The translations under genes were made by a program, and so were the position numbers. From Glutamicibacter protophormiae (GTDB lineage Bacteria > Actinomycetota > Actinomycetes > Actinomycetales > Micrococcaceae): DNA of 64,000 bases. The DNA lies in contig NZ_BMPH01000017.1 in the NCBI RefSeq assembly GCF_014647495.1, forward strand, positions 1 to 64,000, read 5' to 3'. Below the pieces are notes generated by a model. The model saw only the letters and a list, made by a program, of their open reading frames with translations. It was not told where the DNA came from and ran no database searches. Below are positions 1 to 15,923 of this stretch, one piece after another (the first letter of the stretch is position 1; the number at the start of each line of letters is the position of its first letter).

Positions 1-62
1 CCAAACAAAAAATAATTTGGTATCAACAAACTTGGCACACTATTGAGTTCTCAAACAACAAA
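1..62 (-). ncRNA. Leader of an rRNA operon (16S gene just off the left edge)
   Basis: Read on the minus strand, positions 62-31 hold the actinobacterial rrn leader motif (TTTGAGAACTCAATAGTGTG), best known from the mycobacterial pre-16S leader where it takes part in antitermination and processing. It is followed by AT-rich sequence to the window edge. Two good sigma-A promoters lie upstream on the same strand. I infer that a 16S-23S-5S operon begins just left of position 1. The mature 16S itself is not in the window. Confidence 0.75.
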
Positions 63-121
63 CACTTACCGGTTCTCCGCCACCCATTCAAGGAGGCGAT
101 ATCGTCCAGCGTTATATTCAT

Positions 122-151
122 ATTCTATAATCATTGAATTCTGAAAGTCAA
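122..151 (-). promoter_or_regulatory. rrn promoter, proximal
   Basis: The minus strand reads TTGACT (151-146), an 18-bp spacer, then TAGAAT (127-122). This is close to the actinobacterial rRNA promoter type TTGACT-N18-TAGACT. It lies about 60 bp upstream of the conserved leader motif and points toward it. Confidence 0.7.
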
Positions 152-302
152 ATCGATTCTTTGTGATTCGAACCAGTATTCTTTGATTCCCATTCAATTC
201 CGAGTTGTCCACACATGGTGTGGAAAACCTTGATTTTCCGGGGTTTTCGCCGCCTTGTTCCGGTTGGTTGTTGTTCCGTCCGGCTCGTGGCGACAAGGAA
301 AA

Positions 303-331
303 ACTATACACGGGTTGGCGGGGCGGTGCAA
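303..331 (-). promoter_or_regulatory. rrn promoter, distal
   Basis: The minus strand reads TTGCAC (331-326), a 17-bp spacer, and TATAGT (308-303), a near-consensus sigma-A promoter facing the rrn leader. With the proximal promoter it gives the tandem-promoter layout usual for rRNA operons. Between the two, at 205-227, sit two inverted DnaA-box-like 9-mers. The remaining sequence between 332 and 548 shows no gene. Confidence 0.65.
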
Positions 332-548
332 ATCGGAGGGGTGCTGCGCAGCGGTGAGCGTGACCACATAAAACAGAACCACGTTCATTACCGAAAATTT
401 AAGGCCTTAAAGCCCGAGAACATGCGGTTTTTTCCTAGGGCTCCCCGTTACCGCCGGAATATTAAATTCCATTCCGCCGCATCCGGAACCTGAAAAACGT
501 CGAATCCGCGCCGTCACTCTATATTTACGGTGCCGCCCATGGCTCTCA

Positions 549-1313
549 CTACTCTTCGATAACCTCGACGTCGATGATCCGGGGATCATCCAGCTCCAGC
601 TGGTCGGGAGTCAGGGTGGGGATCCCTGCGAAAGCGATGGCTGCAGTTTCAACAACACGCTTGGCCAGGAAACGGTTGCCGGCTCCGCCGATGACCGCGC
701 CGACCCCGAAGGGAACGATTCGGCCGACAACGCTCGCGGCCTGCGTGCCGACGATCTTGCGCATGAACGACTTCTGCATCGTCTTCTGGATCGAGGTATA
801 GAAGCTAGTCGACTTGTTCGCACCGAAGGCCTTGGCCCAGCCCTTGACCGGTCCGCCGCCGCGCCCAGCGGCCTGGCGTGTGAGGCCGGCGATCATCGCA
901 CTGCCTTCCTCGCCCATCAGCACACCCATAACGAGTACTCGTGAACGTTCCGGATCTTCGATGGCAATGCCATGGAGCTCCGCAAGCGTCTGTGCATAAA
1001 GCGCGGACGCTTCGAGAAATCCAAGGGTGGCGGCCACGGACAGGCCCAGCGCGACACCGGTGCCCACCGCAGGGATGGCTGCAGTGCCTCCCACTGCGGC
1101 GCCCGAACCCGTCACGATTTTCAAGTAGTCGCTTTCGGCAATCTTGGAAAGTTCTGCCGCGGTCGCTTCGGGGTGCTTTCGTCGCAACCGTTTCAGGTAG
1201 GCAAGAACCAGCGGACGCTGGACACCGACACCCTTCATGATTGCGTCCTGGATTGCAGTGCGCGGTTTGCCATCGTTGCCGATAACCGTCATCGAAATGG
1301 GATCTTTACTCAT
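549..1313 (-). CDS. EcsC-like protein of unknown function
   Basis: A 254-residue protein. The middle (about 70-120) is rich in Gly, Ala and Val and could associate with a membrane, and a second Gly-rich stretch lies near 200-225. This pattern and length resemble the EcsC family, whose biochemical role is unknown. I chose the start at 1313 (MSKDP) because the longer open frame runs into the divergent aldolase gene. Downstream on the same strand lies the rrn promoter region. It is a single gene with no operon partner. The family assignment is tentative, from general composition and length. Confidence 0.6.
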   Translation of the reverse strand: MSKDPISMTVIGNDGKPRTAIQDAIMKGVGVQRPLVLAYLKRLRRKHPEATAAELSKIAESDYLKIVTGSGAAVGGTAAIPAVGTGVALGLSVAATLGFLEASALYAQTLAELHGIAIEDPERSRVLVMGVLMGEEGSAMIAGLTRQAAGRGGGPVKGWAKAFGANKSTSFYTSIQKTMQKSFMRKIVGTQAASVVGRIVPFGVGAVIGGAGNRFLAKRVVETAAIAFAGIPTLTPDQLELDDPRIIDVEVIEE

Positions 1314-1448
1314 AATGCTGTCAGCATATCGAGCCAAACCTTGAAGTTTCCGGGAACTTGGTGGTTCCAACACCTGAATATCCCCAAATAGCCGGTCATG
1401 TTCGGCCCAGTCCTTGAAACACCCAAATACCGATGGAAGAGTTGGCTT

Positions 1449-2639
1449 ATGAAGAATGCTCAGGCCAAACGGTACAACCACGCCTTGAAACAGGCAGGGA
1501 TCAACGAACGCCCAGTGGCATTGCTGGATTTGGATGCCTTCGATGCGAACGTGATCGCCCTTCGCGAACGAGCCGGAGGACTGCCGATACGTGTTGCATC
1601 CAAATCGCTGCGCATCCGCAAGGCCCTGGAACGGGCACTGGCTGCCGACGGATTCAGCGGAGTGCTGTGCTTTACCCTGAGCGAAGCGCTATGGCTGGCG
1701 AGCCATGGAATGAAAGACCTGGTCGTGGCCTATCCCCAAGCCGATACGGAAGCCATCAGCCGTTGGGCAACCAGCGAACAGGCACGCGCCGAGATCACGG
1801 TCATGGTCGACTCCGTTGCGCAGCTGGATCTCATCGACCGGATCGTTCCGCACCATCATCCGCTGAAGGTCGCCCTTGAGCTTGATGCCGCCTACTACCC
1901 GACCCCGGGACTGCGCATCGGGGCTGCCCGATCGCCGTTGACCGACCCGGCGGATCTGGTTTCATTGGCTGAAGAAGTCCAACGCCGGAAGGGTTTCGAG
2001 CTGGACGGGCTCATGGCCTACGAATCGCAGATCGCCTCGGTACCGGATGGAGGGTTCGCTCCCAAGGCCTGGATCGCCCGAGCCCTTCGGAAACGCAGCG
2101 CCGCCGAGCTTGCCGAGCGGCGTGCCGAAGCCGTGAGCCGCGTGCGCGGTCTCGCGGACCTTCGCTTCGTGAATGCAGGAGGCACCGGTTCATTTGAAAC
2201 GACCACCAAGGAAGCAGCGGTGACAGAGCTGGCCGCAGGCTCCGGGCTCTTCGCTCCGGCCTTGTTCGACTCCTTCCGTTCCTTCTCTCCGTCCCCTGCC
2301 ATGTTCCTGGGCTTCCCGGTAGTCCGAAGGCCGGATCACCAGACGGTCACGATCCTCGGCGGCGGTTGGGCCGCATCCGGTCCCGCCGGAAAAGACCGGT
2401 TGCCGAGCATCGAGCATCCGCGCAAGCTGCGCTACCTGCCGTTGGAAGGAGCCGGCGAGGTGCAGACGCCGCTGACCGGCCCGACCGCGCACCGCCTGAA
2501 CATCGGCGAGACGGTATGGCTGCGCCATGCAAAATCCGGGGAACCGGCAGAACGGGTCAACAAGGTCGCGGTCTTCTCGAAGAACAAGATCAGTGACCAA
2601 TGGCCAACCTATCGAGGCGAGGGGAAGGCCTTCCTGTGA
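1449..2639 (+). CDS. Amino acid deaminase/aldolase, PLP-dependent (alanine racemase-like N domain)
   Basis: A 396-residue fold-type III PLP protein related to D-threonine aldolase and D-amino-acid deaminases. The N-terminal barrel begins with PVALLDLDAFDAN, and Lys52 in VASKS is the likely Schiff-base lysine. The C-terminal beta domain (about 270-390) includes GGGW and the conserved HAKSGE segment. The start at 1449 gives the short lead-in usual for the family and has a GGAAGAG-like ribosome site; an ATG at 1398 is possible but lacks one. It overlaps the lactone oxidase gene by 4 bp, so the two are translationally coupled. This pairing also occurs in Streptomyces. The exact substrate is unknown. 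Confidence 0.85.
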   Translation: MKNAQAKRYNHALKQAGINERPVALLDLDAFDANVIALRERAGGLPIRVASKSLRIRKALERALAADGFSGVLCFTLSEALWLASHGMKDLVVAYPQADTEAISRWATSEQARAEITVMVDSVAQLDLIDRIVPHHHPLKVALELDAAYYPTPGLRIGAARSPLTDPADLVSLAEEVQRRKGFELDGLMAYESQIASVPDGGFAPKAWIARALRKRSAAELAERRAEAVSRVRGLADLRFVNAGGTGSFETTTKEAAVTELAAGSGLFAPALFDSFRSFSPSPAMFLGFPVVRRPDHQTVTILGGGWAASGPAGKDRLPSIEHPRKLRYLPLEGAGEVQTPLTGPTAHRLNIGETVWLRHAKSGEPAERVNKVAVFSKNKISDQWPTYRGEGKAFL

Positions 2640-3937
2640 CCACCTTCCAGAATTTCGCCGGCACAGTGACTGCCGCCCCATCGGTGCGCCAGTCGGTCGC
2701 TTCCCTGGACCAGCTAGGCGGATTGCTCGAGTCGGCGGCGCTGACCGGGCACACCGTGCGCACCGTGGGCGCCGGCCATTCATTCACCCCGCTGGCGAAG
2801 ACCGACGACGTCTTGCTCGATCTCGACGGTTTCCAGGGAATCGAGGAAGTCGATGCGCTCACGCATGACGTGACGTTCCGGGCCGGAACCAGGTTGTGGC
2901 AGGTCCCGGACCTGCTGGAGCCCTTCGGACTGGCGCTTGAGAACATGGGCGACATCGACCGACAGTCCATCGCTGGCGCCATCAGCACCGGCACCCACGG
3001 CACCGGCCTGAAATTCACCGGATTCAGCGGCGCGGTCACCGGACTGCGGATGATGCTGGCCGACGGGACGCAGGTGCGTGCCAGCGCCACGGAGCACCGT
3101 GACCTGTTCCAGGCTGCCCGCGTCGGATTGGGCGCGTTGGGTGTCATCACCCACGTGCGGCTGCGGTGCGTTCCGCACTACATGATGCACGCCGCGGAGA
3201 CCATCGAAGCCATCGAGCCGCTGACCGAGAGCTTTATCGAAAGGGTGGCGCTGGAAGACCATCTGGAGTTCTTCTGGTTCCCGGGCACCGGCAACGCCCA
3301 GGTGAAAACCAATACGCGGTTGCCCGGCGATACGCCGGCGAAAGCGCCTGGCAAGCTCACTGCCTGGGTGAACGACGAGCTGCTGTCCAACGGCGGGCTC
3401 CAGGCCATCTGTTCGGTGGGCGCCGCCATGCCGCGAATGATTCCCCGGCTCAACGGGTTCGCCAGCCGGGTCCTCTCAGACCGCAGCTACACCGCGTCGT
3501 GGAACCAGACCTATATCAGTCCGCGGCGGGTGAAGTTCACCGAGATGGAGTACGCGCTGCCGCTGGAGAACTTCGCCGCGGCGTTTGCGGAACTGCGCCG
3601 CTACTTCACGACTCGGCCCGCACCCGTTGTTTTCCCGTTGGAGGTCCGGACCACTGCCGGCGACGACACCTGGCTGGGGACGGCCAGTGGCCGAAACAGC
3701 GTTTACATTGCGGTGCACCGCTATATCCGCGATCGCGTCCCGCAGTATTTCCCGGAGATGGAGTCGATCCTTCGTTCGCACGGCGGGCGGCCGCACTGGG
3801 GCAAGCAGCACACGCTGCGGGCGCCCGACCTCGCGCAGCTGTATCCGAGATTTGAGGATTTCCGGGCAGTTCGACAGCAGGTCGACCCGCAGGGGCTATT
3901 CGTCAATGACTATCTGCGGGAGCTGCTGGGCGCCTAG
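2636..3937 (+). CDS. FAD-dependent D-arabinono-1,4-lactone oxidase family protein
   Basis: 433 residues with an N-terminal FAD-binding PCMH domain (GAGHSF near 46-50; STGTHGTG near 120-127) and a C-terminal ALO domain ending in the diagnostic HWGKQH and FVNDYLREL motifs. Relatives oxidise aldono-lactones or alditols with O2. I chose GTG at 2636 because it shares GTGA with the upstream stop and follows GGCGAGGGGAAGG; an in-frame ATG at 2600 would overlap the aldolase by 40 bp. The last 4 bp overlap the convergent EEP-like gene. The substrate cannot be deduced. The coupling suggests a shared pathway with the aldolase. Confidence 0.88.
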   Translation: MTTFQNFAGTVTAAPSVRQSVASLDQLGGLLESAALTGHTVRTVGAGHSFTPLAKTDDVLLDLDGFQGIEEVDALTHDVTFRAGTRLWQVPDLLEPFGLALENMGDIDRQSIAGAISTGTHGTGLKFTGFSGAVTGLRMMLADGTQVRASATEHRDLFQAARVGLGALGVITHVRLRCVPHYMMHAAETIEAIEPLTESFIERVALEDHLEFFWFPGTGNAQVKTNTRLPGDTPAKAPGKLTAWVNDELLSNGGLQAICSVGAAMPRMIPRLNGFASRVLSDRSYTASWNQTYISPRRVKFTEMEYALPLENFAAAFAELRRYFTTRPAPVVFPLEVRTTAGDDTWLGTASGRNSVYIAVHRYIRDRVPQYFPEMESILRSHGGRPHWGKQHTLRAPDLAQLYPRFEDFRAVRQQVDPQGLFVNDYLRELLGA

Positions 3938-5019
3938 AACTGGATGTCGGTCCAGATCAAGTCCGAGGTTTCGATAGCCTCGGGTGTCGCGCCCGGGAGC
4001 AGCTGGAAGTCTTCCGGGGCTTCCGCGCCGATGCGGCCCTGGCCCAGCACGTTCCAGCCCTGGTTGGGGATGACGAAGTTCCCGGAATCGTTCAACGCGT
4101 CATCCCGGCCGAGGTCGGCGCCCAGGGCCAGGGCGGCTGCGGTGGATTCGGTGCGCTGAGCCAGCGCGCCGGTCACCACGATGCGGTCCCCGTCGAGGCC
4201 TTCGGCCTTGGCGCCGTCGTCTGCGACGACGTAGTCTTCGCCGGCAATGTAGTCAGCGACAACCTTCAATTCGTCCTTCTGGCGTAGTGCGCCGAAGCCG
4301 TAGCTGCTGTGCGCAGGTTCGGTTTGGGCGGCCAGGATATGGACGCGTTCACCGCGGTACTCGATGGGGATGTCCCACAGCCCGTTGTGCATGACCGGAA
4401 TGGAAGCCGCGACGGCGCCGCTCAGCTCGGAGCTCCCGAGGTTGTTGCCTGCCACCTCGTCCCACTTCAGTGTGGACACCGAAACGACATCCGGCTGGTT
4501 GATCGGATACTTGGACAGCACCACCGTCGAGGCCTGCTCGGCGAATGCACGCTGGCCCCAGGCATCGCCCGGGCCGCCGACGATGCGGTCTGAGTCCAGG
4601 TCCGCGCCGCTCTGCACCCCGCTGGAACCGACGGCAAGATACGAATAGGGGTAGCCGGCATCGGAACGCTCGTCGTCCGGGCTCTTCAGATAGTCCGAGA
4701 TGAAGCTGTTCACTGCATCCTGGTCGGCGTCCATGCCGGTCAGCACCATCACGTCGGGATTGGCGACGCTGATTGCATCGGCCACGCGCAGGGCTTCGGT
4801 GTCGGTTCGGGTCAGCAGGTCCCGATACAGCTCGCCGGGCTCCTCCCCGCTCAGGTTCGTTGCCATCGTGGCCACACGCAGGGAAGTTTCGGAAAGCAGG
4901 GGTGCGCTCACGCCGGCCCCGTCATTCGGGCCGGTAGGTGCGGCGAATGCCGGGGTTGCAGGGAGCATGAACAACGCTCCGATTCCCAGGCCCGCTGTTC
5001 CAACCAAAAACTTGTGCAC
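3934..5019 (-). CDS. Secreted EEP-fold (endonuclease/exonuclease/phosphatase-like) protein, probably catalytically degenerate
   Basis: 361 residues with a Sec signal peptide (hydrophobic 5-25, cleavage near AFA-A). The order of segments follows the exported actinobacterial EEP nuclease/phosphodiesterase family: RVATMATN at the first strand, a PDVMVL strand, and a C-terminal SD..W.DI. The residues that normally act are changed. The NEFD glutamate segment reads TGMD, the HPTPP region reads AQTEPA, the GDFN/GDLN metal and catalytic motif reads TGALA, and the final SDH reads SDL. The fold assignment is an inference. If it is right, the protein is an exported binding protein rather than a nuclease. 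It is monocistronic and convergent with the lactone oxidase. Confidence 0.7.
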   Translation of the reverse strand: MHKFLVGTAGLGIGALFMLPATPAFAAPTGPNDGAGVSAPLLSETSLRVATMATNLSGEEPGELYRDLLTRTDTEALRVADAISVANPDVMVLTGMDADQDAVNSFISDYLKSPDDERSDAGYPYSYLAVGSSGVQSGADLDSDRIVGGPGDAWGQRAFAEQASTVVLSKYPINQPDVVSVSTLKWDEVAGNNLGSSELSGAVAASIPVMHNGLWDIPIEYRGERVHILAAQTEPAHSSYGFGALRQKDELKVVADYIAGEDYVVADDGAKAEGLDGDRIVVTGALAQRTESTAAALALGADLGRDDALNDSGNFVIPNQGWNVLGQGRIGAEAPEDFQLLPGATPEAIETSDLIWTDIQF

Positions 5020-5059
5020 CCTGCAACCCTACGCCGAGAGGCCGGCCCTGACCAGCATC

Positions 5060-6715
5060 TTAATCCGATTGTGATGCTGCAGCCCCGGCGGCCTTGCGGT
5101 TCGCCGCGAGCACTTCCTCCATGTACGGGGCGCGGACATGCGCCGAGATGCGTGCGTCAACCAGGCAGAGGCCCTGCGCACCGGCTTCCACCCATTCACT
5201 GACTTTCCCCAAATCATCCAAGGTTTCCACCTTGATGCCGGTGGCGCCCATGCCCTGGGCCAGGGCCGAGAAGTCTACGGTCGGGATCAGCATCGGATCC
5301 TCATGCAGACCGATCGATCCATACTGGTGCACCTCGGCGCCGTAGGCTGAATCGTTGTAAATGACGATGACACCGCTAGTGACGGTGCGCACGATGGATT
5401 CCAGATCGGCCAGCCCCATGAGGAAGCCGCCGTCGCCGGAGGCCAGCACCACGGTCCGGCCGTCGGCCGCCGCCGCAGCGCCAACCATTGAAGCGATGCC
5501 CAGGCCGATGGACTGGTAGGCGGTGCCAACACAAGTCAGGGATCGGGCACCGCTGGTCGACCAGTACATTGGTCCCCAACCGATGAAGTGCCCGCCGTCC
5601 TGCACCAGAACGCGGTGCGCCGGCAGGATCCGTTCCAGCTCGCTGGCTACGCGGCGCGGATCCAGCAGCCCATCGGCGGCCTTCGCTTCTCCGAGCGGAC
5701 GGGTGCGCAGCGCGGCGAGGTCCAGATCCGCGGCCCACGAGGCAGTGGTCGCGGGCAGCGACTGGAGCAGATGCCCGGCTGCGGTGCTGATATCGGCGGT
5801 GGCGAAGTAGTCCACCCGCGGATTGGTGGCGGCGGCGGCCAAATCGATCTGGATCAGGGTGGCGGATTCATTGACCAGGTCCCCGAAGCGCATGGTGAAC
5901 TGGTTCAGCGATGCGCCGAGCGCCAGCACGACATCCGCCTGGGCAATGATTTCCGCATTCCGCTCGGTGGCGAAGCCTCCGGTGATGCCCAGATCGTGGG
6001 GGTAGTCCAGCAGGTCGCGGGCCAGCAGCGTCCCCGAAGTGGTGGCGCCGATCTTGGTTGCCAGCTCCTTGACCAGCGGTGCGGCATCGATGGCGCCGCG
6101 GCCATAGAGGATGTGCGGTCGCTGGGCGCCGGCCAGCAGCGCGCTGACCTGTTCAAGCTGGGTGGAGTTTAATTCCGGTGCGGGCGGCGTGGAACCGAGG
6201 GCGGCGAAGTCCGGGATTTCGGTTTCAGGCGTCTCGATGGCGGCCAGGTCGTAGGGAATAGCCAAGACCACCGGACATTGTTCGCGCAGCGCATGGGCGG
6301 CGGCCTGCAGGGCGATGGCTCCCGGCGCCGACCGGTCCACCACGTAGCGCGGGGCCCGCACGGCGGCATCGATGGCCGCCTGATCCACGTCCCAGCCGCG
6401 CAAGCCCGAAGTCGGCGCGTCACCGGTAACGAAAAGCAACGGAGTGCGCGCGGCGGCGGCTTCCGCCAACGCGGTCACGGCGTTCGTGTAACCGGCACCG
6501 TAGGTGGTGGAGGCGATGGAGAGCTTGTTGGAGATGCGGAAGTATGCGTCCGCGGCCGCTACCGCGGCCGATTCGTGGCGAACCGCGGTGTAGGTGAAGC
6601 CCTGGCGCACTGCTGCGTCGAGGAAGTGTGCGTTGCCGTTGCCCATCAGACCGAAGATCTGCGGTGCAATTGGCTTGAGGGCATGGGCGATGGCGGCAGA
6701 AACGCTAGACATCAT
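5060..6715 (-). CDS. Thiamine pyrophosphate-dependent enzyme, acetolactate synthase-like
   Basis: About 551 residues with the three-domain TPP fold. The Pyr domain carries the catalytic glutamate in RHESAAVAAADA (Glu48), the central domain follows (about 190-320), and the PP domain has GDGGFLMG followed at the right spacing by YNDSAYG, the Mg/TPP motif. Similar to acetolactate synthase and benzoylformate decarboxylase-like proteins, with no small subunit next door. ATG codons at 6715 and 6712 share an AAAAGAG ribosome site. It lies 200 bp downstream of the HTH/ECF fusion on the same strand. I found no TPP riboswitch in that gap. The reaction is unassigned. Confidence 0.85.
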   Translation of the reverse strand: MMSSVSAAIAHALKPIAPQIFGLMGNGNAHFLDAAVRQGFTYTAVRHESAAVAAADAYFRISNKLSIASTTYGAGYTNAVTALAEAAAARTPLLFVTGDAPTSGLRGWDVDQAAIDAAVRAPRYVVDRSAPGAIALQAAAHALREQCPVVLAIPYDLAAIETPETEIPDFAALGSTPPAPELNSTQLEQVSALLAGAQRPHILYGRGAIDAAPLVKELATKIGATTSGTLLARDLLDYPHDLGITGGFATERNAEIIAQADVVLALGASLNQFTMRFGDLVNESATLIQIDLAAAATNPRVDYFATADISTAAGHLLQSLPATTASWAADLDLAALRTRPLGEAKAADGLLDPRRVASELERILPAHRVLVQDGGHFIGWGPMYWSTSGARSLTCVGTAYQSIGLGIASMVGAAAAADGRTVVLASGDGGFLMGLADLESIVRTVTSGVIVIYNDSAYGAEVHQYGSIGLHEDPMLIPTVDFSALAQGMGATGIKVETLDDLGKVSEWVEAGAQGLCLVDARISAHVRAPYMEEVLAANRKAAGAAASQSD

Positions 6716-6915
6716 GGACTCTTTTCAAAAGTACGGTGCTGAAGAAAATTCCATATATGTCTGCCGCTACCGGTTGCATTTCGGCAACGGGTATCGCCCC
6801 TTTTGAGAGCGCCGGAATCCGCTCAATCGAGGTTCCTGACTCAATGATGATAGGGCAGAACCGCGGTGTTGCGCTAGGCGCCGTTTCTCCAGTGCCCTGG
6901 ACCGAACCGGAAAAT

Positions 6916-7983
6916 CTATCCCAGGGCCCTTCCCCGGCGGTTGCTCCCGGACCCGAATCCGGCGTTCGCCAACCGGTAGGTGCGGTCCAGGGAATCCATT
7001 GCATGCTCCGCAACGTGCCCGTAGACGGGAACATGGATCCAATCCTTGACCATGCCTAGCAGCGCAATCACGATGAATCCGGTCAGCAGCTTGTCCACCA
7101 GTGAATACATCAGGTTGGACTCGAAAACGGCCACCCCGAGCGAGCTGGTGCTGGCCAGGATGGACTGCATCGTCGTTTCGGAGGCGTGGCCGGTGATGCC
7201 CCCGAAAAGGAGAACCAGAATGATGCTCGACACGACCGAACAAGCCACAGCCACCACGACGTTCAGCAGGACGTACTGAGGTAGGGCGGAATTGCGCCTG
7301 ATCAGCTTCGCGCCGTAGCCCCAGACCAGCGCGCCGGTCATGTTCACCAGCCCGAAGGCCGCCGCCGAGGAATCGGTAATCGACAGTCCAATGACGTTGG
7401 TTGCCAGGCCGACAAGCACCCCGGCCCACGGCCCGCAGGCGATGGCGGCCAATGCAGTGCCGACCATGTCCAGATAAAGACGGAGCCCTGCTGCATCCAC
7501 TAGCCAGAAGCCCGCCAAGTTCATCAGCAAGCATGCTGCGAGGAGTATATATATTCGCCGCCGGCTGGCCACGGTGTCTGCCGGCCCGATGGCAGCGACA
7601 ATTTGGACGGGCGGCTCGGTGGGCGCGGGCTGCGGGTTGGCTGGCTCCCGCTGCTTGGCCGCGGACTGGTCGAGACGGGCCTGAAGACACCGGCGTTCCC
7701 ACGTTTCCGCCTCCTCCGGCGAGCAGCCCAAGGCCTGCACGATTTCCCCGACAAGCTTCGCGTTGATACGGGTCCGGCCCAGGCGGAAGGCGTCGTACAC
7801 AGTGGTTCGGGCTGGCCTGGCGGCGGCCGCACCCACTCCGGCGCGTTCTCGAAGCTTCCCGATTCGACGGACGATTTCCGCGTAGGGAACGTCGCCGGCC
7901 TCGATCCGCAACGCCTGGAGATCCCGGGCGATCGCATCGAAGGCTTCGGTCGGAACACCTCGGGATTCCATGTGGTGCGACAT
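6916..7983 (-). CDS. Helix-turn-helix domain fused to an ECF S-component-like membrane domain
   Basis: 355 residues. The N terminus (about 10-105) is an actinobacterial HTH module with the RTTVYDAFRLGR and LVGEIVQALG segments, followed by a Gln/Pro-rich linker. From about 143 to 305 there are five or six membrane segments; the motif LYLDMVGTALAAIACGPWAG is typical of substrate-binding S components of energy-coupling-factor vitamin transporters. The cytoplasmic tail is basic. The start at 7983 has GGAGGA five bases upstream. No EcfA/EcfT genes are nearby, so it would have to share a housekeeping module. A perfect inverted repeat lies 15 bp upstream. The fusion could be a membrane-bound, ligand-responsive regulator; that is inference. 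Confidence 0.75.
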   Translation of the reverse strand: MSHHMESRGVPTEAFDAIARDLQALRIEAGDVPYAEIVRRIGKLRERAGVGAAAARPARTTVYDAFRLGRTRINAKLVGEIVQALGCSPEEAETWERRCLQARLDQSAAKQREPANPQPAPTEPPVQIVAAIGPADTVASRRRIYILLAACLLMNLAGFWLVDAAGLRLYLDMVGTALAAIACGPWAGVLVGLATNVIGLSITDSSAAAFGLVNMTGALVWGYGAKLIRRNSALPQYVLLNVVVAVACSVVSSIILVLLFGGITGHASETTMQSILASTSSLGVAVFESNLMYSLVDKLLTGFIVIALLGMVKDWIHVPVYGHVAEHAMDSLDRTYRLANAGFGSGSNRRGRALG

Positions 7984-7997
7984 GGCCGTCCTCCATA

Positions 7998-8021
7998 CAG
8001 TTGCCGATTCACCGGCAACTG
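7998..8021. promoter_or_regulatory. Perfect inverted repeat upstream of the HTH/ECF gene
   Basis: The arms CAGTTGCCG and CGGCAACTG are perfect, 9 bp each, with a 6-bp spacer. The repeat lies just before the GGAGGA ribosome site of the HTH/ECF gene. It could be an autoregulatory operator or a 5'UTR hairpin. A TAGTAT -10-like box on the minus strand (8064-8059) would put the repeat just downstream of the transcription start. Confidence 0.55.
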
Positions 8022-8342
8022 CCGATGGCCTTCGGCGCTTCGTTCACGCCAAATAAAGATACTAGTCAGATCGTATCCGAAGCGTCGGAGTTGTTCGGAA
8101 TCGTCCGGAAACGCGGTTTTCAGCCCATCATTGCAGCACGCGCGCGATACTTTATGACCTGGGGCGCCGCATGCCGCCTGAACCGTCAGCCGACTCGCAA
8201 ACGGCTGCATCGTTCAGCACCTGCGGCGCATACGACAACTCGCATATGTATTCCAGGAGGGCTTGTGGCACATTTCGTCGCCGATACGGCAAAGCCCCGC
8301 GGCTGACAGCGCACCAGCGGCCGCCCGCAGCGGGGCGGGAGC
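8022..8342. other. Intergenic region without a convincing gene
   Basis: This 321-bp stretch separates the TIGR01777 gene stop from the HTH/ECF upstream repeat. It holds a possible minus-strand -10 (8059-8064) and a 13-codon frame with a strong AGGAGG site at 8265-8306 that I do not accept as a gene. No terminator with a U-tract is evident after the TIGR01777 gene. Confidence 0.5.
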
Positions 8343-9689
8343 CTAGTGCTCCCTACCCAAGCAGTGGGCCAGCGCATCGGGAAGTTCAGCGGAGCGGAAG
8401 GTGTGGCCGCGGGCGGACAGCTTCGCGGGAACGACCCGCTGGCTGGCCAGCGCCAGCAGTTGCGCGCCTTCATCGCCCAGCAGCAGCCGCGGCCCGAAGG
8501 CGGGGACGGGGAAGATCTCCGGGCGGCGCAGCACCTTGGCCAGCACGGCCGAGTACTCGCTGTTGCGCACCGGGGTGGGCGCGGTCGCGTTGACCGGGCC
8601 CTGCAGCTCGCCGTCCCACAGGGCGCGGTGGTAGATGTCCACGAGGTCATCGAGGCCGATCCAGGACTGCCACTGCTGTCCGTCGCCTAGCCTGCCGCCC
8701 AGTCCGGCTTCGTAAAGCGGACGCAGCTGGCGCAGCAGCCCTCCGGTGGGGCTTTGCACCAGGCCGGTGCGGACCTGGACGCGGCGCATGCCGGTGTCCG
8801 GCCCCGCTAGGGCCGCTTGCTCCCAGTCGCGGACAACCTCCGCGAGGAAGTCCCGGCCGTGCGGGGCATCCTCGGCCAGCTCTTCTTCGCCGGCGTCGGC
8901 GCCATACAGGCCGATGGCCGAGGCGCTGACGAAGACCGCGACGCCGGACTGCGCGGCCAGCTGGGCCAGCCGGCGCGTTGGCCCGATGCGGCTGTCGCGG
9001 ATTTTCCTGCGGTGCTCGTTATTGAATCGCCCGGCGATACTCGCCCCGGCCAGATGGACGACTGCGTCGCATCCATCCAGGCAGGATTCGTCGGGGTTCT
9101 CGGGATTCCAAACGCGTTCATTCGGACCTTGGGGGGCCGAACGAACCAAGCGGATGACCCGGTGCCCACCCGATTCGAGAAGAGCACCCAGGGAGGTTCC
9201 CACCATCCCGTGCGAACCGGTCAGCGCAACGGTCAGCGGCGCCATGCCGTGCTGCGCCGCGCGCTGGTGCACCTGCAGGTCTTCGGCCAGCTGCCGGTGC
9301 CGGTAGGCGAGCATGCGCCGTACCAATTTCTGCGGCATGTTGGTGGTGACTTCATCGCGCAGCACGCACTGCTGCGGCCCGTCGGGCAGGATATGGTGCT
9401 CGTGCCGCCAGTGGATCGGCCGCAGCGGCGCCTGGCCGAGCCCCTGGGGCGCCAGCTCGTCCACGAACACGCGGCCCGGGATGTACTCGCTGGAAAGATG
9501 CCTGGCATGCCAGCGCAGTCCGGCAGGCAGCGCCAGCTCGGAGCTGCCGTCGCGAAGGTCCTGAGCCTGGCTCAGCGCGCGCACCGGCTGCCAAGGAGGA
9601 AGCAGCCGATTCATCGCGCCGGGCCGCTCGTGCCACGCAAAGACGTCGTCGGAGGGGAAGGGGATCTTTGTTTCAAGAATGACGGCCAT
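8343..9689 (-). CDS. TIGR01777 family epimerase with N-terminal SRPBCC-like domain
   Basis: 448 residues in two parts. Residues 1-150 resemble a START/SRPBCC ligand-binding domain (ILETKIPFPSDDVFAWHERPGAMN). Residues from about 152 on form an NAD(P)-dependent extended SDR of the SDR39U1/YfcH type: TGSHGMVGTSLGALL is the nucleotide loop, followed by VHLAGASIAGR, the SASAIGLYG strand and the C-terminal GDEG..LL..QRV segment. Relatives act in division-linked or lipid metabolism, but the substrate is unknown. The start at 9689 (MAVIL) has a GGGG site; an ATG 9 bp upstream lacks one. Divergent from the MarR gene with 127 bp between starts. Confidence 0.85.
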   Translation of the reverse strand: MAVILETKIPFPSDDVFAWHERPGAMNRLLPPWQPVRALSQAQDLRDGSSELALPAGLRWHARHLSSEYIPGRVFVDELAPQGLGQAPLRPIHWRHEHHILPDGPQQCVLRDEVTTNMPQKLVRRMLAYRHRQLAEDLQVHQRAAQHGMAPLTVALTGSHGMVGTSLGALLESGGHRVIRLVRSAPQGPNERVWNPENPDESCLDGCDAVVHLAGASIAGRFNNEHRRKIRDSRIGPTRRLAQLAAQSGVAVFVSASAIGLYGADAGEEELAEDAPHGRDFLAEVVRDWEQAALAGPDTGMRRVQVRTGLVQSPTGGLLRQLRPLYEAGLGGRLGDGQQWQSWIGLDDLVDIYHRALWDGELQGPVNATAPTPVRNSEYSAVLAKVLRRPEIFPVPAFGPRLLLGDEGAQLLALASQRVVPAKLSARGHTFRSAELPDALAHCLGREH

Positions 9690-9816
9690 GCCCCACATTC
9701 AACCAGTTTCCACTTCCCGCGGATACTCCTTCAAGCAAGCTTCAAGGAGATCCGGCAGCGCCGCACGCCACCGGCCGCGCCCTGCCTGCCGATGCTCCTG
9801 TGACAAACTGGTTTTC

Positions 9817-10293
9817 ATGGGAACCCAGGACCGGCCGCAGACCTCGGAGCAGGAGCTCGCGGCCTTCGAAACCGCCACGCAGGACCTTGTGGGGCTCGCA
9901 CTGAGCAGCGTGGAGCAGCTGGAGGTATCCCTGCCCCAGTTCCGCCTGCTGCTGACCTTGCAGCGCCGGGGGCGCTCGACGTCCAGCGACTGCGCCAAGG
10001 CCCTGGGCGTGGGCAATTCATCCATCACCCGGCTCGCGGACAGGCTCCATGCCTCCGGCCATCTGGCGCGGGGTTCGGACCCCGCGCACCGCAGCGTTGT
10101 CACCCTGGAGCTGACGGCTGCGGGCCGCCAGGTCGTGCAGCAGGTCACCGAACGCCGGCGCCAGGACCTGAAGGCGGCTCTGGACCTGTTGGAGCCGGCA
10201 GAGCGGGCCGCCTGCGCCGCGGCCCTGGACAAGCTGCACCACGTGGCGGGTCGCAGCATTCCCCGCCCGAACAGCACCCATCTGCCCCTGTAG
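9817..10293 (+). CDS. MarR family transcriptional regulator
   Basis: 158 residues. A winged helix-turn-helix lies in the middle (about 45-110): LTLQRRGRSTSSDCAKALGVGN, then the wing with RGSDPAHRS. Long helices at both ends provide the dimer interface, as in MarR/OhrR proteins. One Cys in the HTH region and one near the C terminus could be redox-active, but the placement is not that of OhrR. I chose ATG 9817 for the normal family length. No ribosome site is evident, so translation may be leaderless. The palindromic promoter 60 bp downstream, ahead of the heme-barrel gene, is the likely target. Confidence 0.88.
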   Translation: MGTQDRPQTSEQELAAFETATQDLVGLALSSVEQLEVSLPQFRLLLTLQRRGRSTSSDCAKALGVGNSSITRLADRLHASGHLARGSDPAHRSVVTLELTAAGRQVVQQVTERRRQDLKAALDLLEPAERAACAAALDKLHHVAGRSIPRPNSTHLPL

Positions 10294-10351
10294 ACCCCCG
10301 CGCATCAGGCATCCCGCCTCATGGCCATGCACACCTAAACTTTTGCCTTCG

Positions 10352-10378
10352 ACAACTCTTGCTTAACGCAAGAGTTGT
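10352..10378. promoter_or_regulatory. Palindromic operator overlapping the -35 box (likely MarR site)
   Basis: Perfect inverted repeat: arms ACAACTCTTGC and GCAAGAGTTGT with 5 bp between. It covers the -35 element of the promoter for the nitrobindin-like gene and lies immediately after the MarR gene. Its length and symmetry fit a MarR dimer. The regulator assignment is from proximity. Confidence 0.7.
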
Positions 10379-10387
10379 GCCTACATT
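10359..10387 (+). promoter_or_regulatory. Promoter of the nitrobindin-like gene
   Basis: TTGCTT (10359-10364), 17-bp spacer, TACATT (10382-10387). The -35 box lies inside the 27-bp palindrome. A second palindrome, GAATTGATCAATTC (10389-10402), directly follows the -10 where transcription would start. The predicted leader is about 120 nt and contains a 25-codon frame (10421-10498). Confidence 0.6.
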
Positions 10388-10388
10388 G

Positions 10389-10402
10389 GAATTGATCAAT
10401 TC
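10389..10402. promoter_or_regulatory. Second perfect palindrome at the predicted start site
   Basis: GAATTGATCAATTC is fully self-complementary over 14 bp and sits at the predicted +1 of the TTGCTT/TACATT promoter. It differs in sequence from the upstream palindrome, so it may bind another regulator or be a second, weaker site. Confidence 0.45.
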
Positions 10403-10513
10403 AATCGCGGGGTGCCGGGGATGCAGGAACTTGAGACCCGGTGGCGTGCGCTGGACCCGTGCACGGCGGCCGCGCCGCGCACCCCCACCACTCACTGATC
10501 GGAGTACCCCGCC

Positions 10514-11125
10514 ATGACCGCATTGGCAAGCATCTCGACCATCCGGGGACCGCAGAAGCTCGGCCCGCTCACGCCGCTGGTCGGCGAATGGGAAGGGGAT
10601 GCCGGAGTAGACCTTTCGTACCACAACCTGACCGATGAAACGAGCGAAACCGGCTACTACGAGCGCGCGGTCTTCAAGCCCATCCCGATCCAGGAAAACG
10701 GCAGGCAGACCTTGTGGGGACTGAACTACTCGATGACCGCCTGGCGCCATGGCGAGGAGGCCATGAACCCGTTCCACGACGAAATCGGCTTCCTGCTCTG
10801 GGACCGCGAGAACAGCCAGGTGATGCGCAACGTGGTCTTCGGCCGCGGCATCGCGGTTCTGGCCGGGAGCACCGCCGGGCCGCGCGACACCACCGTGCAC
10901 TTCAACGCCACCCCGGGAGACCCCTGCTACGGGGTGCTGCAGAACAAGTACCTGTTGGAACGGGCGGAGATCAAGGAGTTCATCAGCTCCTTCACCTTCC
11001 ACGAGGACGACAGCTTCAGCTATGCCTCGGACCTGCTGCTGCGCCTGGCCGCACTGGGCGCGGAAATGCGCCATACCGACGCCAATACCCTGCATCGGGT
11101 CAGGCGCTTCCACCCGGGAGAATAG
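10514..11125 (+). CDS. Nitrobindin-like heme-binding beta-barrel protein (THAP4/FABP-like)
   Basis: 203 residues with the nitrobindin signature: GPLTPLVGEWEG (Gly24-x-Trp26-x-Gly28), internal antiparallel strands, and a C-terminal HRVRRF segment. Family members bind ferric heme in a ten-stranded barrel and handle nitric oxide or peroxynitrite in the cytoplasm. Which His is the proximal heme ligand here is not certain from sequence. It is transcribed from a palindrome-covered promoter next to a MarR gene, suggesting induction by a small molecule or oxidant. Convergent with the dehydrogenase, with a hairpin between. Confidence 0.82.
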   Translation: MTALASISTIRGPQKLGPLTPLVGEWEGDAGVDLSYHNLTDETSETGYYERAVFKPIPIQENGRQTLWGLNYSMTAWRHGEEAMNPFHDEIGFLLWDRENSQVMRNVVFGRGIAVLAGSTAGPRDTTVHFNATPGDPCYGVLQNKYLLERAEIKEFISSFTFHEDDSFSYASDLLLRLAALGAEMRHTDANTLHRVRRFHPGE

Positions 11126-11129
11126 GGAA

Positions 11130-11168
11130 CGGCGGGGCCGGATGCGATGTTCGCCTCCGGCCCCGCCG
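11130..11168. terminator. Intergenic hairpin between convergent genes
   Basis: Perfect 13-bp GC-rich stem (CGGCGGGGCCGGA with its complement) and a 13-nt loop, lying between the nitrobindin-like gene and the convergent dehydrogenase. There is no U-tract on either side, so it is a likely but imperfect bidirectional terminator. Confidence 0.55.
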
Positions 11169-11191
11169 AGGTCCCGGACCGGGCCTAGCGC

Positions 11192-14023
11192 CTAGCGCGC
11201 GACCGCGTCCGCCAGCAGCTCGATGACGTGGCGGTAGTCCTTGCCGGTTGCGCGCGTCATGCCCAGCTCGCAGGTGCGGTTGCAGGAGGCATGGGCCTGG
11301 GCGTCGAGCTCACGCACTTCGGCGGCCTCGGCGGCGGTGGCGGAGGCGGTCAGCTCCGGGTGCAGCATGCCGCGGTCGCCCGCGTAGGCGCAGCAACCCC
11401 AGTTGACCGGCACGTTCACGGTGTCCGCGGCGGCCCGCGCCAGCTTCTCCAGGTCCGGGTTCAGTCCCATCTGCGTGGAGGAGCAGGTCGGATGCAGGGT
11501 CAGCGAGGCGATCTTGCGGCCTTCGGGCAGCTTGTCCAGCAGGTGCTGCGAGGTGAAGGCGAGCAGGTCCACCACGGTGTAGCCGTGCCCTTCCAGCGTG
11601 TGGGCGAAGCCCTCGGTGCAGCTGGAGGCGTCGGAGATGACCGGCAGGTTCTTCCCCGGCAGCGCCGCCGCGACCTCGTCGAGCACCCGCTGCGCCATCA
11701 GGTCGTGCCCGTCCGCGTAGCCCTTGGAGGTCCACGGGGTGCCGCAGCACATCGACTCGATGCCCTGCGGGACGTAGACCGAAACGCCGGCCGCCTGCAG
11801 CAGCTTGGTGAAGGCCGCGGAGACGCCCTCGCCGTCGCTGGCCGGGCCGAACATGGAGTTCACGCAGGCCGGAAGGTAGATGGCCAGCGGTTCGCCGCCC
11901 ACGGCGCCCAGGTTGCCGGCCAGCGGCTTGCGGGCCTTGCCGCCGCCGGGCAGCTCCGCGTCGTAGCGCGGCATGACATCGGTGCTGATCACCTTGCGCG
12001 CCGCGTCGGTGACGCCGCGGACCAGTCCTACGGGGAACTTGTCCGCCACGCTCAGGGCCAGCGAACCGGCGCGGGTGGCCGCGCCCCAGCCCTTGGCGGC
12101 GGTCTTGAACCCGGCGGCCAGGGCGGGGTTCGCGTCTTCGCGGCGCAGGCGCTTGACCAGCAGGCCGGTGTTGATCCCCACCGGGCAGGCGGTGACGCAC
12201 ATGCCGTCCACGGCGCAGGTCTGCACGCCGTTGTACTCGTAGTCCTTCTCCAGCTCCGCGGCCAGCTCCAGGTTGCCTTCCGCCTCGGCCTTGGCGATGG
12301 CGCGGCGCACCACGATGCGCTGGCGCGGGGTGAGGGTCAGGTCCTTGGAAGGGCAGACCGGTTCGCAGTAGCCGCATTCCACGCAGCGGTCGGCCTCCAC
12401 CTCGATGGTGGCGTTCAGCTTGATGTTGCGGATGTGGGCGGCGTGGTCCTCGTCGATGATGACCCCGGGGTTCATCATCAGGCGCGGGTCGCAGGCGGCC
12501 TTGAGCTGAAGGTGCACGTCGTAGAGCTCGTCGCCGTACTGGGCGCGCACGAAGGGGGCCATGGCGCGGCCGGTGCCGTGCTCCGCCTTCAGGTTGCCGC
12601 CCTTGGAGAGGATCAGCTCCACCATCTTGTCGTTGAAGCCGTTGTAGCGGGTCAGCGCCTGCTCGCCCTCGAAGCGGTCGGTGAGCATGAAGTGGATGTT
12701 GCCGTCCTTGGCATGGCCGAAGATCACCGAATCCGCGTAGCCGTATTCGGTGAACAGCTCCTGCAGGCTGCCGCAGGTTTCGGCCAGCGACGGCACCGGC
12801 ACCGCCACGTCCTCGAGCAGCGCGGTGGTGCCCGAGACGCGGGCCCCGGCCACGGAGGCGTACAGCCCCTTGCGGAATTTCCAGGCGGCCTGGCGGTTCT
12901 TCGCATCCGGGGAGAGCACCGCCGGGGCGCGCAGCGCGGCCGTGTCCAGCAGCTTCTGCCCGGCGTCCTGCAGGCCGCGCAGTTCCTCGTCGCTGTCCGC
13001 GTGGTATTCGATGAGCAGCGCCGCCTGATGGTCCACCTCGAAGCCCATGATGGCTTCGGGCACGCCGGGCAGCGACTGGCCCACGCGCAGCGAGGTGGAG
13101 TCCATGAGCTCCAGGGTGGCGGCGCCCGAATCCAGCAGCTCGGGCAGGGCGCGGGTGGCCAGATCCAGGTTGTCGAAGACCGCCAGGGTGGCGATGGCCA
13201 GCTTGCGGATCGGCACGGTGCGGAACACCGCCTCGGCCACGAAGGCCAGCGTGCCTTCGGAGCCGATGATCAAGTGGGCCATCAGCTGCGCCGGGGAGTC
13301 GAAGTCCAGGAACGCGTTGATGCCGTAGCCCATGGTGTTCTTCAGCGCGAAGTGCTTCTCGATCTTCGCCACGGAGTCCGGGTTGGAGCGCACGCGGTCG
13401 CGCAGCTTTTCCAGGGTGGCCACCAGCTGCGGTTCGGCGGCGGCCAGCTGGGCGTCGGCGTCCGGGGCGGCGGTGTCGATCATGGTGCCGCTGGGCAGCA
13501 CGAAGGTCATCGATTCAAGGGTGCGGTAGGTGTTGAACTCGGTGCCGCAGGCCATTCCGGAGGAGTTGTTGGCGATCACCCCGCCCACGGTGCAGGCCGC
13601 CTCGCTGGCCGGGTCCGGGCCCAGCTTGCTGCCGTAGACCCCCAGCCGGGCGTTGACCTGGCGGATCGTGGCACCGGGCTGGACGCGCACACGCTGGCCG
13701 CCATCCAGCACGGTGATGCCGCGGAAATTCTTGCGCACGTCGATCATCAGGCCGTCGCCGCTGGCCTGCCCGGCCAGCGAGGTGCCGCCGGAGCGCAGGG
13801 TCACCGGCTGGTTGTTCCGGTTCGCGGCGGCCAGCAGATCGGAGACCTCGCGGGCGTCCTTGGCCAGCACCACCGCCTGCGGGGTGTACAGGTAGTGCGA
13901 CGCATCCGAGGCGTAGGCCACGCGGTCGATGGATCGGGTCATCACCCGGCCGGGCTCGCCGACCAGGTCGAGGATGCTGGATGAAACCGTGGTTTCGCCG
14001 AGTGCTGGCGTGCTCAATGCCAT
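11192..14023 (-). CDS. FAD- and Fe-S-containing 2-hydroxyacid dehydrogenase (D-lactate/D-2-hydroxyglutarate type)
   Basis: 943 residues joining GlcD-like and GlcF-like parts. FAD_binding_4 with RSGGTSLAGQ and NNSSGM is at about 40-230, the FAD-oxidase C domain with GHAKDGN and GTGR is at 240-520, the first 4Fe-4S cluster CVECGYCEPVCP is near 545, and the second is CAVDGMCVTACP. Two CCG domains (MCCGTPW and NWGCCAYAG) follow. Enzymes of this layout (Dld, YdiJ) pass electrons from D-2-hydroxyacids to the respiratory chain at the inner membrane face. The ATG at 14023 has a GGAG site. The divergent GntR/FCD gene and a TTGG-N5-CCAA operator support a lactate- or hydroxyacid-responsive unit. Substrate not proven. 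Confidence 0.9.
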   Translation of the reverse strand: MALSTPALGETTVSSSILDLVGEPGRVMTRSIDRVAYASDASHYLYTPQAVVLAKDAREVSDLLAAANRNNQPVTLRSGGTSLAGQASGDGLMIDVRKNFRGITVLDGGQRVRVQPGATIRQVNARLGVYGSKLGPDPASEAACTVGGVIANNSSGMACGTEFNTYRTLESMTFVLPSGTMIDTAAPDADAQLAAAEPQLVATLEKLRDRVRSNPDSVAKIEKHFALKNTMGYGINAFLDFDSPAQLMAHLIIGSEGTLAFVAEAVFRTVPIRKLAIATLAVFDNLDLATRALPELLDSGAATLELMDSTSLRVGQSLPGVPEAIMGFEVDHQAALLIEYHADSDEELRGLQDAGQKLLDTAALRAPAVLSPDAKNRQAAWKFRKGLYASVAGARVSGTTALLEDVAVPVPSLAETCGSLQELFTEYGYADSVIFGHAKDGNIHFMLTDRFEGEQALTRYNGFNDKMVELILSKGGNLKAEHGTGRAMAPFVRAQYGDELYDVHLQLKAACDPRLMMNPGVIIDEDHAAHIRNIKLNATIEVEADRCVECGYCEPVCPSKDLTLTPRQRIVVRRAIAKAEAEGNLELAAELEKDYEYNGVQTCAVDGMCVTACPVGINTGLLVKRLRREDANPALAAGFKTAAKGWGAATRAGSLALSVADKFPVGLVRGVTDAARKVISTDVMPRYDAELPGGGKARKPLAGNLGAVGGEPLAIYLPACVNSMFGPASDGEGVSAAFTKLLQAAGVSVYVPQGIESMCCGTPWTSKGYADGHDLMAQRVLDEVAAALPGKNLPVISDASSCTEGFAHTLEGHGYTVVDLLAFTSQHLLDKLPEGRKIASLTLHPTCSSTQMGLNPDLEKLARAAADTVNVPVNWGCCAYAGDRGMLHPELTASATAAEAAEVRELDAQAHASCNRTCELGMTRATGKDYRHVIELLADAVAR

Positions 14024-14070
14024 GGTGCGCTCCTATATGGATCGTAGGCGCGGCCTACCGTCGCGGGAAA

Positions 14071-14099
14071 TTGTCTTACAAGTACACATGCCATAGTAA
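14071..14099 (+). promoter_or_regulatory. Putative promoter of the GntR gene
   Basis: TTGTCT (14071-14076), 17 bp, TAGTAA (14094-14099). The start site would fall about ten bases before the TTGG-N5-CCAA operator, a good position for repression. Confidence 0.4.
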
Positions 14100-14116
14100 T
14101 ACGCGCCGTGGGATAC

Positions 14117-14129
14117 TTGGTAGATCCAA
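14117..14129. promoter_or_regulatory. FadR/LldR-type operator
   Basis: TTGG-TAGAT-CCAA matches the TTGG-N5-CCAA core of the known E. coli LldR operator. It lies between the divergent dehydrogenase and GntR genes, 27 bp before the chosen GntR start. Half-sites AAGTACA (14080) and TGTACTT (14131) flank it. Confidence 0.55.
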
Positions 14130-14155
14130 ATGTACTTCTGCCCGAAAGGACGCAC

Positions 14156-14809
14156 GTGGCTGCCCGTCTAGGAGTGGTTTCGGTAGTGCAGGCCGTCATC
14201 AAGTCGCTGCGCGAACGCATCTTCAGCGGCGAGCTGGCCCCCGGCACCCCGCTGGGCGAGGTCGACGTGGCCGCGCACTACGAGGTCGCCCGCCCTACCG
14301 CCAAGGCCGCCCTGGAGAACCTGGTGGCCAGCGGACTGCTCACGCGCAACGCGCACCAAAGCGCGCGCGTGCGGGTGCTTTCCGCAGCGGACGCCCGCGA
14401 CATCTACCAGACCCGGGCCATCATCGAGGCCGAAGCCGTGCGCCTGCTGGCCGGCACCGGCCAGGTGCCCGAAGCCGCGCTGGAGGCGAACGCCCAGATC
14501 ACCGCGCTGTCCAACGCCTCCCCCATAGAAATCGTGGAACCCGACGTGCGTTTCCACGCGGCCCTGGTGCAGGCGCTGGGCTCGCCGCGAACCAGCGCGA
14601 TCTATGCGCAGCTCACGGACGAAATACGGCTGTGCATGACGCACGTGCAGGATGCCACGCTGCTATCCACCCGGGACATCGCCGCCGAGCACGCGCACCT
14701 GCTCGAGCTGATCTCCGCCGGATCCCGGCAAGAGGCCGCCCAGGCGCTGGCCGACCACCTGCAGACGGCGAGCGCCAAGCTCGCCGCGCACCTGGATACC
14801 CTCACCTAG
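14156..14809 (+). CDS. GntR family regulator with FCD domain
   Basis: 217 residues. The winged helix is at about 10-75 (LRERIFSGELAPGTPLGEVDVAAHYEVARPTAK). An all-helical FCD effector domain follows, with the metal/ligand-type pattern D..FH..L and the later EH..LL. Such regulators sense small carboxylates. I chose GTG 14156 because AAAGGA precedes it by six bases and the operator then lies upstream; a GTG at 14108 would put the operator inside the gene. It is divergent from the FAD/Fe-S dehydrogenase, its likely target, and is followed 20 bp later by a small unknown gene. Confidence 0.88.
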   Translation: MAARLGVVSVVQAVIKSLRERIFSGELAPGTPLGEVDVAAHYEVARPTAKAALENLVASGLLTRNAHQSARVRVLSAADARDIYQTRAIIEAEAVRLLAGTGQVPEAALEANAQITALSNASPIEIVEPDVRFHAALVQALGSPRTSAIYAQLTDEIRLCMTHVQDATLLSTRDIAAEHAHLLELISAGSRQEAAQALADHLQTASAKLAAHLDTLT

Positions 14810-14829
14810 ACGAAAGCAGGATCGACGCC

Positions 14830-15282
14830 ATGGGCTTGTTCGCACGCAAGCAGTCCACTGCTCCCGGGACCGGGGACGACTGGGAACGCAGGCTGGAGGC
14901 CCTGGAGCCCCTGCGGGTGGGCAAGGCAGACTTCCGCGCCCGAGTGCTGGGTGCGGGACGGCGCGGCACGCAGCGGATTCCCGCGGTGGAGCTGGCCGTC
15001 AGCGGGACCGCCGGGCACTTCCGCGCCGATGAGCTGGAGTCCTTCCTGGGCGGCAGGCTCGGGATCCCCGAAACCCTGCACAATTCGCCGAGCCCGCTGT
15101 TCATGGCCACCGGCGCCCACGCCGGGGCGGATTCCCCGGCCGGCGATGCGCTGGCGCACGCCGCGAGGGACGAGGCCGCAGTCCTGCAGCCCGCCACCGA
15201 GGGCCTGCGCTGCCTGGTGTTGTTCAGCCCCGCGGACCAGCAGCGGATCACCCGCTGGCTCGCACTCTTCCCACGCCCCTAG
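14830..15282 (+). CDS. Hypothetical protein
   Basis: 150 residues, soluble, no signal peptide or membrane segment. It opens with MGLFARKQS, then a charged region (WERRLEALEPLRVGKADFRARV) and a central hydrophobic strand, ending LVLFSPADQQRITRWLALF. I recognise no domain. It begins 20 bp after the GntR stop and could be co-transcribed with it. Its last 4 bp overlap the convergent acidic small protein. Codon use is like its neighbours. Confidence 0.65.
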   Translation: MGLFARKQSTAPGTGDDWERRLEALEPLRVGKADFRARVLGAGRRGTQRIPAVELAVSGTAGHFRADELESFLGGRLGIPETLHNSPSPLFMATGAHAGADSPAGDALAHAARDEAAVLQPATEGLRCLVLFSPADQQRITRWLALFPRP

Positions 15283-15461: not shown

Positions 15462-15467
15462 GATTTC

Positions 15468-15892: not shown

Positions 15893-15923
15893 AGATGCAG
15901 ACACCCCAACGAAAGGACGCACC

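Follow-up and report, generated by a model that had tools for sequence, protein, structure and literature searches.

An HTH-type domain fused to an ECF S-component domain in Glutamicibacter and its relatives: a probable membrane-anchored regulator of its own gene

Introduction

Within the S-component fold, an AXXXA motif in helix 1 accompanies coupling to the ECF module, and receptors with this fold lack it, according to the accessible part of Partipilo and Slotboom (2024, PMC11109136). The same part describes the 5TMR (LytS-type) sensor kinases, in which the S-component fold serves as receptor and the ECF docking motif is lacking; the main text of that paper contains none of the terms ‘DNA-binding’, ‘helix-turn-helix’, and ‘transcription’. 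A DNA-binding-type domain and a membrane part are combined in one chain in ToxR, CadC, and BcrR, and the accessible part of the survey that covers them (PMC10269533) names no sensor with the S-component fold. A transporter domain is fused to a signaling output in the transceptor CbrA, which joins a histidine-recognizing transporter domain to a histidine kinase (PMC13022988, accessible part).

The window considered here, i.e., the whole analyzed stretch of 64,000 nucleotides from Glutamicibacter protophormiae, carries a gene whose product shares features with all of these systems. It resembles the 5TMR kinases in having an S-component fold without the docking motif, although its output would be an N-terminal HTH, whereas that of the 5TMR kinases consists of C-terminal kinase-type domains. 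It resembles ToxR, CadC, and BcrR in its one-chain design, with an S-component fold as the putative sensor, and CbrA in its pairing of a transporter-type domain (here an S component) with an output (here an HTH). No published fusion of an HTH to an S component was among the matches listed in our literature search, outside of which most subscription literature lies.

Architecture of the fusion gene

The gene is a single uninterrupted frame of 355 codons that begins with an ATG at 7983:

6916..7983, minus strand: gene for the HTH–S-component fusion, 355 aa (open reading frame and homologues)
7990..7994, minus strand: ribosome binding site GGAGG (from the sequence; rated good)
7675..7944, minus strand: N-terminal HTH-type domain, residues 14–103, five predicted helices (HTH_31 in relatives, identity, model)
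7555..7674, minus strand: variable linker, residues 104–143 (mean pairwise identity 0.25)
7048..7554, minus strand: S-component-type membrane domain, residues 144–312 (profile and structure matches)

The presence of an HTH-type head and an ECF S-component domain in one chain, as put forward in the original prediction, is confirmed, with the two parts in frame across genera. Among 13 fusions, conservation of the head equals or exceeds that of the membrane domain (mean pairwise identity 0.70 for residues 16–103 and 0.66 for the membrane domain), whereas the linker is not conserved (0.25); the head has thus been kept together with the membrane domain. Neither Pfam nor NCBIfam identified a kinase, GGDEF, or similar output domain in the protein, and the stretch after the S domain is only 43 residues long.

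Distribution and descent

The fusion gene is single copy in the window’s genome (E up to 0.001). It occurs in 5 of the 18 genomes of the genus and in 15 of the 295 family genomes, the other ten all belonging to one further genus (g23); no second match was found in these 15 genomes, with at most seven candidates scored per genome. Among 396 genomes of the order, seven further fusions were found at E up to 1e-8 (G485, G545, G611, G321, G561, G463, and G615, in which the S domain is incomplete), and 396 genomes drawn from the phylum yielded only the window’s own fusion. The genus also includes G. soli, whose strain NHPC-3 has an 83% identical protein. Matches to the S domain alone occur in about 77 of the 295 family genomes, by reading of the search listing. 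Four scans of viral contigs returned no relatives, and among plasmids only five Enterococcus records matched, in the S part only.

Decayed copies were recognized in G097 (frameshift), G132 (remnant), and G510 (pieces). The copy in G132 (L050:6356-7893) stands after a phosphomethylpyrimidine kinase-type gene (PF08543).

In a phylogenetic tree, a branch with support of 94/94 sets the ECF S components apart. A single origin of the fusions is likely rather than shown, because the support for the fusion group is only 41/48. Neither the tree nor the residue comparison below includes L007 and L010, which nearly duplicate L006 and L009; the frameshifted L016 is counted among the 21 fusions compared.

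The membrane half is related to ECF S components

The S-component relationship of the membrane half, which the original prediction had proposed from its appearance, is borne out by profile searches. Residues 148–312 match the CD3073 ECF S-component family (NF045596) with E=8.3e-24 (84.2 bits, under the cut-off of 180), and all 28 relatives examined match this family too. PF12822 is matched with E=4.1e-5 (24.1 bits, under the gathering score of 30.7). A profile of the 13 fusions retrieved the folate S component FolT from the PDB at 0.0011, and a profile of 28 relatives, of which 16 are ECF S components, did so at 2.9e-9. The 5TMR family (PF07694) is matched less well by the window protein than are ECF S components, remaining below its cut-off (E=0.063, 13.3 bits against 24.6); weak matches to it occur in 12 of the 13 fusions (E up to 1, best 8.8e-7).

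Structure comparison placed ECF S components first: all of the top 17 rows belong to this class (RibU, FolT, BioY, ThiT, PanT, and others; Z 8.3–12.3 over 145–169 residues), and unrelated structures rank behind them, from Z 7.9 downwards. The comparison rests on a poor full-length model (five-sequence alignment, pLDDT 47), and the tool itself warns that helical bundles with Z below about 13 can reflect a common arrangement. Foldseek with the whole-protein model gave nothing at E <= 0.001, with RibU and FolT at the top of the list. A hydropathy scan found clear segments for part of the six helices only and did not resolve all six cleanly. Positive residues precede helix 1 and follow helix 6, a pattern compatible with both ends lying inside.

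S-component-like domains were also encountered in other multidomain proteins. In G793 (L139:3980-6490), one open reading frame of 836 aa combines an ion-channel domain (PF00520/PF07885) with a ROK kinase (PF00480) and a domain resembling S components, and the same architecture occurs in L089 (G919), Pfam having been run on G793 only. Three Elusimicrobia proteins of about 670 aa (L032, L033, and L034) carry an N-terminal relative of the fusion’s S domain that shares its GALVWG motif; their C-termini appear kinase-like from motifs recognized by eye, and Pfam assigned no family to L032 at 1e-3.

Residues and genes associated with transport

Over about 165 residues, the fusions and the CD3073-type ECF S components form one sequence family, and they share N155, D172, G175, G222, G262, D297, and K298. 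In the alignment with FolT, P149 and A/G153 of CD3073-type proteins occupy the positions of the AXXXA motif. A PxxxA/G motif is present at this place in helix 1 of 15 of 16 ECF relatives, whereas none of 21 fusions has a small-xxx-small motif there. Position 294 is Ser in 21/21 fusions and in 1/16 ECF relatives, the other 15 having Asp, Asn, or Glu; Asn290 is found in 21/21 fusions and 0/16 ECF relatives; and Trp221 is found in 21/21 fusions, in 3/3 of the Elusimicrobia kinase-like proteins, and in 0/16 ECF relatives. These altered residues leave room for a ligand different from that of the ECF relatives.

No EcfT gene neighbors the fusion in any of 22 contexts, whereas one is present at 13 of 13 ECF relatives with fetched surroundings (contexts of 10–20 kb, with the queries taken from ECF loci). 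The fusions thus do not show the group I arrangement, in which an S component is encoded together with EcfT and EcfA. EcfA-type matches lie near 11 fusions, and in L039 the match is the ATPase of an adjoining ABC operon. Positions 1–20000 of the window contain no match to EcfT, an EcfA-like protein, or nucleoside hydrolase, in agreement with the original statement that no ATPase or T component is nearby. With both docking motif and EcfT neighbors absent, the fusion does not look like part of a transporter. EcfT genes are nevertheless encoded elsewhere in every one of the 25 genomes searched, of which 21 carry the fusion and 4 do not; the window’s genome has three, located on C1, C2, and C9, whereas C17 is the contig of the window.

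The N-terminal head

In the window protein HTH_31 is matched weakly, at residues 38–94 (profile positions 3–63 of 64; E=0.25, 12.1 bits against a cut-off of 27). Among 18 aligned head segments, eight match this family at E up to 1, the best at 7.2e-6. The head was modeled from a two-sequence alignment as five helices (pLDDT 77), and no HTH was among the PDB matches listed for this model, so that the HTH fold is putative. Four arginines (R59, R67, R70, and R72) close to the predicted recognition helix are invariant in the 13 fusions.

Heads of this type also occur apart from the fusions, at the start of long actinobacterial proteins of the HTH–NB-ARC (STAND) kind, and eight that were aligned are 26–42% identical to that of the window. 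Pfam identified NB-ARC with AAA or TPR domains in the two such proteins scanned, others being assigned by eye; in the fusion, a membrane domain takes the place of these parts.

Tandem repeats upstream form a candidate operator

Two elements upstream of the gene were considered for a regulatory role:

8083..8110, minus strand: candidate operator of tandem 10-bp repeats, TTCCGGACGA/TTCCGAACAA/CTCCGACG, 100–127 bp upstream of the ATG (conserved array)
7998..8021, minus strand: inverted repeat CAGTTGCCG-N6-CGGCAACTG just upstream of the ribosome binding site (perfect 9-bp arms)

The repeat unit TCCGAACAA occurs in tandem before all 15 fusion genes of the two genera. A two-unit pattern of 18 positions scores 15–17 in each of these promoters, and none of 200 shuffles of each scored as high. 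Since the pattern was derived from the same 15 promoters, these scores are not an independent test; neither are they 15 independent cases, because the two genera may share promoter ancestry. Across 216 upstream regions from the window and ten other loci, a score of 15 was reached only by the six fusion genes called there, the next best being 14. For the window promoter, the tandem-unit score is significant, whereas the count of CGAAC pentamers alone is not. Tandem direct repeats are also used by ToxR.

Independent evidence comes from genes that share only the head and from a distant fusion. Among 15 distinct head-only genes (identical copies counted once), the motif precedes two (L020, 16 of 18; L200, 14 of 18; 0 of 300 shuffles as high for each), and the other 13 have no clear array. 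The fusion of G545, from another family, is preceded by CCGCACAA repeats scoring 15 of 18 (1 of 200 shuffles as high, then 0 of 300), and the other six of the seven distant fusions have no clear array (L059 is borderline, at 13 of 18). The array is tied to the fusion gene and partly to the HTH type. The G545 fusion with the variant array (L122) sits among genes that, by eye, resemble site-specific recombinases.

With up to two mismatches allowed, sites in G000, G009, and G016 were confined to the fusion arrays; because these three genomes have no second strong site, a regulon beyond the fusion’s own gene is not seen. Additional sites with 1–2 mismatches occur in G012 and G002. The pattern CGAACAAYNCCGA has 41 sites in 9 genomes; of the 30 inspected by eye, five are the fusions’ own promoters and most others look like coding or chance matches. 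A three-unit pattern has exact matches in 4 of 7 genomes, all of them at fusion promoters, and one mismatch adds 21 sites, three of them own promoters, compared with 12 matches for a reversed control pattern. One CGAACAAYNCCGA site in G002 and G012 directly precedes a small open reading frame.

In g23, a TANNAT element lies 72–75 bp after the start of the array in 10 of 10 genomes. At this spacing the array would fall upstream of the -35 region, as for an activator, and its position well upstream of the -10-like element suggests activation. In the window the array is closer than in g23 to a -10-like element (34 or 45 bp, for two candidate elements). The spacing is inconstant within the window’s genus: besides 34/45 bp, it is 24/35 bp (again two candidates) or 156 bp (G012 and G002), and no such element was found in G016.

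The perfect inverted repeat at 7998–8021, which the original prediction had proposed to check for binding by the HTH, does exist, and it falls between the array and the ribosome binding site. Its role as an operator was rejected, as none of the other 14 promoters shows it (arms of at least 7 bp, within about 200 bp). By the same measure, G. soli carries another repeat close by and G233 one further up, and the rest have none. Folded as RNA, the window stretch is more stable than most of its shuffles (z -2.7; 3 of 200 as low), whereas the G. soli stretch is not (z -0.7; 47 of 200); the repeat may form an RNA hairpin.

Gene neighborhood and candidate ligands

One neighbor had given rise to the suggestion of thiamine as ligand:

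5060..6715, minus strand: TPP-dependent enzyme, a core gene judged unrelated (Pfam; genus comparison)

This enzyme is a genuine neighbor by Pfam. It is encoded in all 18 genomes of the genus, as against 5 for the fusion, and the two are adjacent in four of these five; in 5 of the 13 fusion-free genomes it lies within 1.5 kb of a TIGR01777 gene (1.5 kb flanks only). As a core gene, it is uninformative about the ligand, and the proposal of thiamine or a precursor was dropped. Nucleosides are the better guess, because the loci of 11 of 13 ECF relatives carry either an inosine-uridine nucleoside hydrolase (10/13) or an adenosine deaminase (1/13), eight of these proteins having been confirmed by Pfam. 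These loci point to nucleosides as ligands of the CD3073-type family.

In 8 of the 10 g23 genomes, urease genes lie on one side of the fusion and a family-5 (peptide/nickel-type) ABC operon on the other (Pfam on one genome). From this neighborhood nickel would be a guess as ligand. The link to urease or metals was not retained: it is missing in G197 and, within about 8 kb, in the window’s genus. In G233 the contig begins just before the fusion gene. No metabolic neighbor gene kept across both genera was found. In G012 (L037:1375-3477), a family-5 solute-binding protein and a small regulator, as seen beside g23 fusions, lie about 4 kb from the fusion.

Discussion

Two conserved halves, a lost docking motif, and an array of its own make a membrane-anchored one-component regulator the simplest account of the fusion. 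We consider it probable that the protein is a membrane-anchored, autoregulating transcription factor with an S-component sensor, which would respond at the membrane to a nutrient, possibly a nucleoside, by controlling its own gene; DNA binding, ligand, topology, oligomeric state, and direction of control are aspects that we infer. The S-component fold in the membrane would be the sensor, with a pocket for some small nutrient, of which a nucleoside or a derivative is the most likely. The HTH head, ahead of helix 1, would be cytoplasmic and bind the tandem 10-bp sites upstream of the promoter, with two or more copies side by side. Ligand binding would alter the arrangement of the heads and thereby transcription of the fusion gene, possibly also of genes with weaker sites beyond those found. 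In a more specific form, put forward only tentatively, an S component that once served a nucleoside transporter would read extracellular nucleoside in its pocket and control its own promoter through the 10-bp tandem sites, without kinase, motor, or partner. The first interpretation of this gene as a one-component membrane sensor therefore stands in its S-component relationship, in the co-conservation of head and membrane domain, and in the lack of a local EcfT, and it gains a good candidate operator; thiamine and the 7998–8021 operator do not stand.

The remaining ECF-type features could instead reflect transport. Coupling in trans is conceivable because all 21 fusion genomes searched have EcfT genes at other loci, so that the S domain might pair with an ECF module encoded there while the HTH head signals uptake to the promoter. 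The residues D172, G175, G222, G262, D297, and K298, common to the ECF relatives, would suit such a moonlighting subunit, yet the helix-1 docking motif is found in none of the 21 fusions and EcfT in none of the 22 contexts, and an N-terminal cytoplasmic head could impede toppling; on balance this seems unlikely. Some BioY and BtuM proteins have been reported to transport without an ECF module. Solitary S components exist (PMC11109136, accessible part), and a solitary transporter with an accessory HTH would agree with the lack of adjoining ECF genes and the retention of several ECF-type residues. It would leave the retention of the HTH and the array unexplained, however, and no metabolic neighbor is kept across genera, which together make it very improbable.

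A further possibility concerns the head, whose HTH fold might serve contacts with proteins rather than DNA, the whole being a scaffold comparable to RodZ or MreD. RodZ consists of an HTH plus a membrane helix. The S-component fold is also present in MreD, by the accessible part of PMC11109136, and the weak HTH match of the window protein and the lack of a visible regulon would fit a scaffold. Four invariant arginines in 13 fusions, and an array that precedes both the fusion gene and two other genes with the same head type, argue instead for DNA; furthermore, the S domain is closest to CD3073, and no MreD family was among the Pfam matches listed. We therefore regard a protein-contact head as improbable.

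If the fusion is a membrane-anchored one-component regulator, the idea proposed in 2024, of an S-component fold common to transporters and receptors, would be extended to direct gene control within a single chain, and, should the ligand be a nucleoside, the path from this fold to gene control would be a very short one. This small system, for which a candidate operator is defined and the class of ligands can be tested, may also offer a chassis for membrane biosensors of scarce nutrients.
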